From an uncultured Bacteroidota bacterium (GTDB lineage: Bacteria; Bacteroidota; Bacteroidia; Bacteroidales; SZUA-534): a DNA stretch of 64,000 bases. The notes under the pieces were generated by a model. That model was not told where the DNA came from and made no database searches. It saw only the letters and a list, made by a program, of their open reading frames with translations. Both the position numbers and the translations under genes were made by a program. Where the stretch lies: the NCBI GenBank assembly GCA_946186925.1, contig CAMHPA010000004.1:31181-95180 (forward strand), given 5' to 3'. Positions 26,993-29,824 of this stretch are shown piece by piece (within the stretch, counting starts at the first letter, position 1; each line of letters opens with the position of its first letter).

Positions 26993-27075
26993 ATTGTTAT
27001 CGTAATAGTTAGTTCTAAAAAAACAGCCGATCCCGAGCGTTCGGAACCGGCTGCTGAGTGTCGTTTGCCGGCGGC

Positions 27076-27924
27076 CTATCGGAAGCTTCCTCCGTACTTG
27101 ACAACCTCGCTGTTGCGGTTGATTACCAGGAACGGGATTGTCTCCTTGTAGTCGGGGTTGTCCTTCACCATCTTCTTGTATTTGTTGATGATGAGCACCA
27201 CAAGGTCGGAGTCGATGTTCTGGCTGAAACGCAGAATCTCGTCCTCGAAAACCTTGCCTTTTTTGGCCGTCTTTATACCATATATAATGTCTTTCTTGTC
27301 GAGCAGCTTCTTGGTGAAGTAGATGTTGTTGGCCATATCCTTCTTCTGATACTCGTCGTCGATATATGGCTTGATGATGTTGATGTTGCAGTTGTAGTAC
27401 TTCGACAGATAGACAACCCACTGCAGAGTCTCTTTCATCTTCTTGTCATGGTCGAGCGGCACCACAATCTCTTTGTAGTAGTCGTGTGTGGGCGCTGTGG
27501 TGGCCACAATGAACGGGATGTCGATAACCGACAGTATGTCAGTGATTTCCCTAATGCCGAGGGTTTCCTTCTCGGTCATCTTATAGGTGCGGCCGGTGAT
27601 TACCAGGTTGGCGTTGGCGTCTTTCATCAGTCCGTCAACGGTTTTGCTCTTGGTGCCAATCTCCACATCGATGAAAATGCGCTGTGGGTCAAGATTGTAC
27701 TTCTGCACCATCTGGTTGGCGGCCTCTTTGATTTTCACCTTTTCGCTTTCGTACTCAGCCTGTTTGGCAGCTTTACCGAACAAACCTGGTGCTTTCAGGA
27801 ACCGAACCAGCATAATCTGGTTGTCAACCTCGTTAGCAAGCAAAATAGCATGCTGAAGGGCTATCTCGCATGTTTCTGTGTAATCCCACGGTATTACAAT
27901 AACGTCTTTTCTCGTCTTTGCCAT
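27076..27924 (-). CDS. Universal stress protein with two UspA domains
   Basis: 282 residues in two tandem Usp domains (about 1-145 and 150-282). The first starts DVIVIPWDYTETCEIALQHA and ends VIDIPFIVAT; the second starts KEIVVPLDHDKKMKETLQWV and ends PFLVINR. The G-x2-G-x9-G(S/T) ATP-binding loop is poorly kept (GRTYKMTEKETLGIREITD in the first), so ATP binding is doubtful. The gene begins 31 nt downstream of the cyclase-HD gene on the same strand, with no terminator between them, so it is likely co-transcribed. That pairing is notable because some Usp proteins bind cAMP. Confidence 0.85.
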   Translation of the reverse strand: MAKTRKDVIVIPWDYTETCEIALQHAILLANEVDNQIMLVRFLKAPGLFGKAAKQAEYESEKVKIKEAANQMVQKYNLDPQRIFIDVEIGTKSKTVDGLMKDANANLVITGRTYKMTEKETLGIREITDILSVIDIPFIVATTAPTHDYYKEIVVPLDHDKKMKETLQWVVYLSKYYNCNINIIKPYIDDEYQKKDMANNIYFTKKLLDKKDIIYGIKTAKKGKVFEDEILRFSQNIDSDLVVLIINKYKKMVKDNPDYKETIPFLVINRNSEVVKYGGSFR

Positions 27925-27955
27925 ATACTAACAATTGAATAATTTGCGAAAATAA

Positions 27956-29824
27956 TTATTTTTTTTCAACTAAACGCCTAATTGCCTCCAATTGATTGTT
28001 TTTGTTTACATCACGCATCTGTTTTGCCGAATTGGTAAAGTACTGATGACCCTCTATGAACTTGATTTGCATTAAGTTCCACTTGTCAATGTCATCTTCG
28101 ATGGCACCGCGTTCGCGAAGCTCACGATAGAGATTTCCTGACACAGGAATAAAGTCGGCGCGACCCAGATAGTCGAGGTCGGCGTCACAAATTATCTGCT
28201 CGAGCAGAGCAACCGGCTTCGGCGGCAGTTTTGTCTTCATTATCAGGTTGCAGATAAAGTCAATCTGCTCAGGTGTGTAGTCATATTTCGGCAGATACTC
28301 GCGTGCAATCTCGCAACCGGCCTCCTCGTGGTCTTTGTATGTGCGGGTAAATCCTGTGTCGTGGAACAGAGCTGCGGTTTTCAGCAGCAGCATCTCCTCG
28401 TCGGTGATGCCCTCGTGTCGGCCGATAATCTCAACCTGCGTTGTCACGTCGATGGTGTGCTTCAGGTTGTGATAGTAGAGGTTCTTGGGCAGTTTCTCCT
28501 CGAGCATATTCAGCACAACCTCCTCAATATCGTCGAAACGGACAATGCCCAGGCGAGTCTGGAAAGCTTGGTTCGGCCTTACACCCATTCCGCCTTCCGA
28601 CAGATGGGGGCGGAAGCCCTCAATCAGGTACATGTCAATCTCGCCTTTGTATTTGACGGGCATCTTGCCCCAGTACTGGCAGACAAAGTAGTCTTTCACA
28701 AGCTCGTATGTCATGCCAGTGATGTTCACCTTGTTTATCTGCCCCGAGGCCTCCATGCGGCTGGCAATGTTGACGGTGTCGCCCCATATCTCGAGTTTTT
28801 TCTTGTTGCCGTTGTTGTTGCAGAATACGGGGCCTGTGTGAATGCCGATGCGCAGGTTCCAGCCTTGGTCGGCGCCGTATTGCAGTTTCATGGCCTGCAT
28901 GTATTGGTACATTTCGAATGCGGCCAGTACCACCTCAATGGGGTTGGTGTGGTTCTTTTGCGGAATGCCGCCGGCGCACATGTAGATGTCGCCAATCGAT
29001 TTGATTTTTTCGATGTGGAATTTTTTTACCACCTCGTCGAAGTGGAAGAAGAAGCGGTCGAGATCGTCGATGAGGTGTTCGGCATTCTCGTTTTTCGAAA
29101 TGTTTGAGAATCCGTGAACGTCGGAGAACAGTACGGTCACCATCTTATAGCGGGTGGCCTTTTCTTTGTCTTTCGATTTCTCCTTAAGTTTTTCAAACTC
29201 CTCTTTTGGCATATAGTTGGCCACAAGTTCATCGTACTTAATCTTTTGAGCTTGGAGCTCTTTGGTGCGGTCGGTGATCTCGTTTTCAAGTGATAGGGTG
29301 GTGCGCAGAATCTTCAGCCTGCTCCAGAAGTAGATGATAAGGATGGCTGCCACGGCGATCATAATGGCTACAACAAAATCGATGACGCCGAACGAGCGGC
29401 CGTCGGTGAGCTTGATGGTCGTCTGATAGGAGAGACCGCCCTCACTGCGGGCCTTGACAACCACGTTGGTGTGGCGCGACGGCAGGTTGAATGTGACCGA
29501 CGACTTTGTCGACCAGATGGGCTCCTGCCCTGTACCTTCAAAGCTGAACTCGCTTAACATCAAGCGTGTGACATCGTCGGGGTCTATTGTGACAGTGATT
29601 TTTTTTGTGCCGGCGTGTTTGGTGAGATTGTATTCGATTTCGCCGTCGTTGTGTTTCTCGGTGGGGGTTAGAGATATTTTCTCCTCCACGGTCACGCTTA
29701 CACTGAATGAGCCCGCGTTTTTGGATTGGGCGCTGATTTGCAGTGCTGTTAAAATCATGCACGATGTGAGCGCAAGGCTCACAATGGTAATGCCGCTATT
29801 TCTTTTTGTTGCCAAAACTGTCAC
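27956..29824 (-). CDS. Membrane class III nucleotide cyclase fused to HD phosphohydrolase
   Basis: 622 residues, GTG start (an in-frame TAA lies just upstream). Layout: N-terminal hydrophobic signal/anchor (11-31), an extracytoplasmic Ig-like beta domain of about 110 residues, a membrane helix (about 147-167), a coiled coil (about 170-220), a class III cyclase domain (about 228-405), a linker, and an HD domain (about 445-560). Cyclase catalytic residues are present: metal Asp235 (VLFSD) and Asp279 (SIGDIYM), Asn352 and Arg356 (NIASR). The base-selecting pair is Lys275 and Glu345 (KLEIWGD), close to the Lys/Asp of adenylate cyclases. The HD domain has YHNLKHTIDVTTQ (451-463), HD (488-489) and CDADLD (546-550), all metal ligands. 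The YHN-x2-H-x2-DV-x2-Q string is like that of class I cyclic-nucleotide phosphodiesterases. Predicted: a sensor that makes, and perhaps also breaks, a cyclic nucleotide. Confidence 0.85.
   Translation of the reverse strand: MTVLATKRNSGITIVSLALTSCMILTALQISAQSKNAGSFSVSVTVEEKISLTPTEKHNDGEIEYNLTKHAGTKKITVTIDPDDVTRLMLSEFSFEGTGQEPIWSTKSSVTFNLPSRHTNVVVKARSEGGLSYQTTIKLTDGRSFGVIDFVVAIMIAVAAILIIYFWSRLKILRTTLSLENEITDRTKELQAQKIKYDELVANYMPKEEFEKLKEKSKDKEKATRYKMVTVLFSDVHGFSNISKNENAEHLIDDLDRFFFHFDEVVKKFHIEKIKSIGDIYMCAGGIPQKNHTNPIEVVLAAFEMYQYMQAMKLQYGADQGWNLRIGIHTGPVFCNNNGNKKKLEIWGDTVNIASRMEASGQINKVNITGMTYELVKDYFVCQYWGKMPVKYKGEIDMYLIEGFRPHLSEGGMGVRPNQAFQTRLGIVRFDDIEEVVLNMLEEKLPKNLYYHNLKHTIDVTTQVEIIGRHEGITDEEMLLLKTAALFHDTGFTRTYKDHEEAGCEIAREYLPKYDYTPEQIDFICNLIMKTKLPPKPVALLEQIICDADLDYLGRADFIPVSGNLYRELRERGAIEDDIDKWNLMQIKFIEGHQYFTNSAKQMRDVNKNNQLEAIRRLVEKK

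Follow-up and report, generated by a model that had tools for sequence, protein, structure and literature searches.

In the window analysed here, a stretch of 64,000 nucleotides from an uncultured bacterium of the order Bacteroidales (phylum Bacteroidota; contig CAMHPA010000004.1, positions 31,181 to 95,180), the gene at 27956..29824 on the minus strand encodes a protein that joins a class III nucleotide cyclase domain to an HD domain resembling the catalytic domains of class I cyclic-nucleotide phosphodiesterases (PDEs), and it is followed directly by a gene for a tandem universal stress protein (USP). The joined protein is real and not a product of chance, because 2309 relatives were recovered at E <= 1e-3 among 7995 candidates scored, the best of them full length with both domains, and because 19 of the 20 genomes of the family carry the fusion. 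We suggest, as a reading to which we would give about an even chance, that it is a membrane receptor in which an intact cyclase and an HD domain hydrolysing the same 3',5'-cyclic nucleotide, probably cyclic AMP (cAMP), work with the downstream USP. Within the family all 20 genomes have a match, the one without the fusion being an assembly of 780 contigs. Matches were found in 177 of the 295 genomes of the order, at least 103 of which have one fusion or more (140 rows listed), and the proteins occur in a short form (~470 residues), a mid form like that of the window and a long form (~1240 residues). In the phylum, 236 of 395 genomes match; among the matches listed, with at most three candidates scored per genome, the fusion appears as a single match in the window's genome (G000), G351 and G327 (with two stops in G327) while in G460 it shows up as two matches that share a frame. 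Most of the remaining HD rows belong to frames of ~200 or 400-500 residues. The control genome, Bacteroides ihuae, gave no match to the cyclase profile PF00211. The nearest named relatives belong to Salinivirgaceae metagenome-assembled genomes, mostly of ruminant origin, and the rumen is the likely source of the bacterium itself.

The cyclase half is matched by Guanylate_cyc (PF00211) over residues 223-403 (28616..29158, minus strand; E 3e-44, 151 bits against a cut-off of 21.9). All six key residues, namely the metal ligands D235 and D279, the base-selecting pair K275/E345, and N352 and R356, stand where an earlier reading made from the sequence alone had placed them, and that reading was also right in calling both domains complete. 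Glu345 is an unusual partner in the base-selecting pair; every one of the family's 19 fusion genes has K275/E345, whereas residue 345 is Asp in 24 of the 26 loci examined in the order outside it (L049-L074; Glu in L070 and L072). The first metal ligand is less constant. Counted by distinct genomes, since some genes of the family occur in two rows, residue 235 (family loci L019-L037) is Asp in all 11 genomes of the window's genus, where the other catalytic residues are intact as well, and Asn in each of the 8 fusion genes read from six further genera of that family, while the 26 loci outside the family have Asp in 21 cases, Asn in four and Ser in one. Of the 125 fused database rows with a letter at this position (126 rows in all, which are clusters skewed toward relatives of the window protein), 73 have Asp and the other 52 Asn, Ser or Gly. 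Cyclases without an HD, by comparison, have Asp in all 43 rows that show a letter there, a set in which L001, L018 and L047 are one gene of the window's genome. On a tree of 66 rows, which was rooted at its midpoint and built from an alignment that included the column of residue 235, at least five changes at this position are required. The window's genus is nested within the Asn-bearing clade of the family, grouping with L030/P0066 (support 100/99) and then with P0063 (94/92); therefore, its Asp235 has either been regained or been retained while the residue was lost independently at least three times around it. The cyclase domain appears to be maintained and not decaying, since its mean dN/dS (ratio of nonsynonymous to synonymous substitution rates) is low in both groups, at 0.030 over 27 pairs and at 0.044 over the 4 usable pairs in which Asp235 is lost. 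Judged from these sequences, the window's genus looks like the exception of its family in keeping an intact maker half. The term self-limiting, which the sequence-only reading had used for the protein, presumes an active cyclase and fits poorly with the eight Asn-bearing genes of the six sister genera, which also carry Glu345. The window's genome contains a second cyclase (G000:C27:4668-5411; L018:4665-5861) of 398 residues, with the usual Lys/Asp pair and without an HD domain, in which a PAS-like part can be recognized by eye.

The HD half (conserved region residues 428-622, 27959..28543) is matched by HD (PF01966) over residues 454-549 (E 4.6e-9; 37 bits against a cut-off of 22), and its metal residues H456, H488, D489 and D549 are complete. 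The YHN string that had been likened to that of class I PDEs is indeed present as YHNLKHTIDV, beginning at residue 451. The predicted structure aligns end to end with the catalytic domains of the class I enzymes PDE4D and PDE10A, though equally well with HD hydrolases of the YpgQ type, and H452, H456, H488 and D489 line up with class I residues in all six alignments made, the C-terminal Asp (D549) in three of the six, and Q586 and F589, at the places of the invariant Gln and the clamp Phe, in four (3/3 modes with 42 HD rows, 1/3 with 22). The sequence-only reading was to be given up if the HD domain aligned with dGTPase/YfbR-type hydrolases and not with PDEs; as the domain does align with class I PDEs, the reading survives this check. 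Its claim of likeness to class I PDEs is nevertheless only partly borne out. The domain remains below the PDEase_I (PF00233) threshold (14.6 against 24.8 bits), the PDE motif HDxxH has Phe here in place of its second His, and the modelled fold matches PDEs no better than it matches 2pq7 or HD hydrolases of the YpgQ type. Not all of the eight class I metal-pocket residues, as listed in PMC5617230, are found, the Glu and His of LENHH being unplaceable. A profile search against the PDB gave HD hydrolases as top matches (2pq7, 1e-9) and 0.015 for the best PDE, and a profile comparison with PDE4D, in which a single sequence stood for the PDE side, was weak; families missing from the fold-search list were not counted as excluded. 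The PDEase_I cut-off was exceeded in none of 148 Bacteroidota genomes. The domain belongs to a Bacteroidota family that likely hydrolyses cyclic mononucleotides. That it acts on a cyclic mononucleotide we hold with reasonable confidence, and hydrolysis is the best guess because the family keeps two kinds of cyclic-nucleotide partners, PycTM effectors and cyclases. The sole PDEase_I-like match in the 148 genomes, itself below the cut-off, lies inside an HD-PycTM protein (G363:C32:74979-75176; L153).

In 38 of 40 PycTM loci (8/10 in a first set and 30/30 in a second, the latter being the best-scoring ones of their search), the PycTM protein begins with a domain of the window's HD family; identity between the HD of PycTM proteins (PF18967) and the window HD is 25-35% over 114-189 residues. 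All fused cyclase rows with a letter at position 586 have Gln there, as do nine further HDs that are not joined to PycTM, and in 40/40 PycTM-fused HD rows the residue is Asn, Ser, Thr or Trp; one of these rows (L082) was read as Gln with a narrower profile and as Thr in a later reading, and a stand-alone HD (L114) has Gln586 despite an adjoining PycTM gene. The split does not by itself provide a substrate rule, because PDEs of the plant CAPE proteins have Asn or Thr at this position and the Thr-bearing Marchantia CAPE hydrolyses cAMP, according to PMC8115329 and PMC5159850. In L075, a gap of 2 nt separates a small cyclase gene from the HD-PycTM gene that follows it, and no PF00211-type cyclase was found within the stretch read for the other HD-PycTM rows. 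Tentatively, and with less than even confidence, it might be speculated that Bacteroidota own a class I-like PDE family common to cyclase receptors and PycTM effectors and split by a base-reading residue (Gln versus Asn/Ser/Thr), which in the window's order would be built into membrane mononucleotide receptors reminiscent of GGDEF-EAL proteins, with a cyclase half toggling between enzyme and regulator and a tandem USP of their own that would buffer the messenger or act as effector.

A number of further loci show the HD family or PycTM in related company. A DUF2652 protein with an IPDISGYT start that looks cyclase-like by eye adjoins an HD-PycTM gene (L076:353-1435) and may be an unrecognised cyclase partner. 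In L114:2504-5831 (G428:C1), a gene for a cyclase with tetratricopeptide repeats (TPRs) is followed 217 nt behind by the stand-alone HD gene, with the PycTM gene convergent. In L115:6686-8146 and L116:3850-5310, each with class III cyclase genes not far away, the HD forms one chain with a YitT membrane protein that carries DUF2179, and it is C-terminal in proteins of ~860-880 residues with a TIR-like start and a TolB-like part, both by eye, and TPRs (by Pfam in L117) in L117:4099-6741 and L118:2387-4966, the former adjoining a response-regulator cyclase. By coordinates, a PycTM match lies right behind a class III cyclase match in G363:C1:212684-213819 and another ~2 kb from a stand-alone HD in G500:C39:12569-15468. 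Membership of the window's fusion in a Pycsar system was considered and rejected: the cyclase domain is recognised by the PycC models of PADLOC (best 1.4e-11), but neither neighbouring gene encodes PycTM or PycTIR, and a search of the window's genome, which covered PycTM and not PycTIR, found no PycTM.

The USP gene (27076..27924, minus strand, 282 residues) begins 31 nt past the stop codon of the fusion gene on the same strand, as had been noted before, and its product matches PF00582 in two stretches (34.6 bits against a cut-off of 24). The link to the fusion is real and order-wide. In the family the USP gene is directly downstream of all 19 fusions, down to 55% identity, and in the order a tandem USP gene was found within 1.5 kb of at least 52 of 140 fusion rows, as compared to ~0.4 expected from a rough USP density; 52 is a lower bound, since the fusion rows were picked by hand among the matches listed (by eye, for coverage of both domains, with the pieces G171:C300, G025:C254 and G033 excluded) and the USP rows were the 150 listed. 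Among these 52 rows the USP gene is downstream on the same strand in 16 and divergent upstream in 43, with both arrangements in 7. It accompanies 41 of the 59 listed fusion forms of at least 530 residues, but only 11 of the 81 shorter ones, and, in the loci fetched with 1.5-kb flanks (beyond which the 5' ends of long genes may fall), 27 of 46 fused cyclases as opposed to 0 of 38 HD-free cyclases. The looser relatives L013-L015 gave no match to the window USP. The role of effector that the sequence-only reading proposed for the USP remains a guess: the signature G-x2-G-x9-G-[ST], the motif of ATP-binding USPs, occurs in 0 of 32 partner-type USPs, the second half of which is conserved. Against the PDB, the window USP gave one weak match to another USP (3idf, E 0.15), and the mycobacterial cAMP-binding USP was not among the matches. 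Its structure model was poor (mean predicted local distance difference test score, pLDDT, 57) and for this reason was not taken to a fold search. In one genome a long fusion gene is followed by two tandem-USP genes in series (G295:C5:4700-8205). Classic effectors were also considered, but the two PF00027 proteins of the window's genome lack, by eye, the E...R pair of the CRP pocket. One of the PF00027 proteins of this genome (G000:C68, L016:634-2073, minus strand; 479 residues) combines the cyclic nucleoside monophosphate (cNMP)-binding domain with what appears by eye to be a family 2 encapsulin-like shell part, adjoins a SufS-like cysteine desulfurase gene and seems to lack the phosphate-binding Arg of the cNMP pocket.

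In the receptor that we propose, a ligand would bind to the fast-evolving extracytoplasmic part, the signal would pass via the transmembrane helix and the linker and shift the balance between the cyclase homodimer and the HD site, and the fusion protein would set the local cyclic-nucleotide level. The HD domain would represent the constant output, a role assigned to it because its catalytic residues are invariant across relatives while Asp235 of the cyclase gives way to Asn in sister genera; the cyclase, in turn, would be an intact maker in the window's genus and a regulatory module in the Asn235 relatives. The USP might bind or buffer the messenger or relay the signal. It might also be argued that the protein, including that of the window, is a ligand-gated phosphodiesterase whose cyclase domain binds ATP or a cyclic nucleotide and controls the HD, the messenger being produced by other cyclases. 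The replacement of Asp235 in 52 of the 125 fused database rows and in 8 of the family's 19 fusion genes but in none of the HD-free rows, the repeated changes on the tree, the purifying selection that persists after the loss, and the second cyclase of the window's genome are all in line with this idea. A precedent of a kind exists in proteins with GGDEF and EAL domains, which combine a maker and a breaker in one chain, often with the loss of one active site, and in which degenerate GGDEF domains control EAL domains, although folds and messenger differ from those of the window protein. Yet the presence of Asp235 and all other catalytic residues in each of the 11 genomes of the window's genus is hard to explain without catalysis, and we regard such a purely regulatory cyclase as rather unlikely for the window.

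Doubts about the substrates appear less weighty. If the HD domain were a YpgQ-like nucleotide (pyro)phosphohydrolase, the fusion would couple nucleotide sensing to cyclase output, and the equal fold matches to 2pq7, YpgQ and PDEs as well as the best profile matches in the PDB would be expected. However, the family is fused to cyclases and to PycTM effectors and has stand-alone copies beside cyclases, and some of the alignments extend the correspondence with PDE residues as far as the C-terminal helix; we therefore consider this explanation improbable. The base-selecting pair, being Lys/Glu where Lys/Asp would be usual, could also mean that both halves handle a messenger other than cAMP, that is, cyclic GMP, CMP or UMP. 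The constancy of K275/E345 throughout the family and the matches of the PycC models point in this direction, but Glu for Asp is a conservative exchange, Asp345 prevails in the order outside the family, mammalian adenylate cyclases match the fusion protein far more strongly (2e-42) than PycC models do, and the genome yielded no PycTM. This possibility appears more remote still.

The closest known system is CAPE (COMBINED AC with PDE) of plants. According to PMC5159850 and PMC8115329, CAPE proteins of liverworts and other streptophytes unite a class III cyclase and a PDE in one membrane protein, both activities have been demonstrated for that of Marchantia, and the metal Asp of its cyclase is essential (D1340A). 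The union of maker and breaker in one chain, as the sequence-only reading described it, is thus already known from plants (PMC5159850). Like CAPE, the window protein is a single membrane protein that combines a class III cyclase with a domain of PDE-like fold, this domain being a PDE by likeness only. They differ in that CAPE has the PDE first and the cyclase last with transmembrane helices in between, whereas in the window protein a transmembrane helix precedes both domains and their order is reversed, and in that the PDE of CAPE keeps all eight class I metal residues, which the window HD does not. With PDE4D and PDE10A the window HD shares the YHNxxHxxDV start and the HD pair, and its modelled fold resembles theirs over nearly the whole domain, but it comprises ~200 residues as opposed to ~325. 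The HDs of PycTM proteins are of the same family and differ in being fused to an effector and not to a cyclase. Precedent for a USP in cAMP signalling comes from the mycobacterial cAMP sponges Rv1636 and MSMEG_3811 (PMC11107214); like these, the window USP is a member of the USP family with a probable tie to cyclic-nucleotide signalling, yet it is of tandem form without the canonical motif.

PMC8115329 assigns class I PDEs to eukaryotes and places the PDEs of bacteria in class III, and PMC6989115 reports that Bacteroides thetaiotaomicron is devoid of cya and crp relatives and B. fragilis of detectable cAMP; Bacteroides belongs to the same order as the window's genome, Bacteroidales. For the terms searched, the open-access literature yielded no publication that deals with a cyclase-HD fusion in bacteria or with its connection to a USP. 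The architecture as such is not unseen, since JGI annotation already names some relatives 'class 3 adenylate cyclase/HD superfamily phosphodiesterase'. Judged against that literature, three findings appear to be new: the USP gene accompanies the fusion across the order, the cyclase has lost its Asp repeatedly while the HD site stayed the same, and PycTM proteins draw on the same HD family. If the proposed receptor is correct, a good part of the Bacteroidales would run a cyclic-mononucleotide circuit with a widespread cyclase-PDE-like receptor and a USP neighbour, a circuit for whose hydrolase and partner no assay turned up, and the hydrolase of this receptor would be tied to the PycTM effectors of phage defence. 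The natural variants with Asp or Asn at position 235 would further allow one to ask when a cyclase turns into a regulator of its own phosphodiesterase.

With regard to the gene itself, the open reading frame for 622 residues given by the sequence-only reading, which did not name a strand, was borne out on the minus strand (29824..27956) when counted from GTG, as are all residue numbers here. A TTG at 29815 is the more likely start, as the database copy P0001 has 619 residues and an 89% identical relative, P0002, begins (MATKRNSG) at the matching position. Two hydrophobic stretches, at residues 10-32 and 142-173, fit a signal peptide or anchor (29729..29797) and one transmembrane helix (residues 146-167, 29324..29389) by hydropathy. 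Between them lies the putative extracytoplasmic part (residues 33-145, 29390..29728), the fastest-evolving portion of the protein and a putative beta domain in the sequence-only reading, and a linker (residues 172-222, 29159..29311), which that reading took for a possible coiled coil, leads to the cyclase domain; in the long relative L055, a sub-cut-off match to Y_Y_Y precedes that domain. A consensus scan listed no terminator-like site in the 31-nt gap before the USP gene (27925..27955) and a terminator-like hairpin of 15 pairs with a T run 3' of that gene (27022..27055, minus strand). The gene before the fusion gene is RibF-like.
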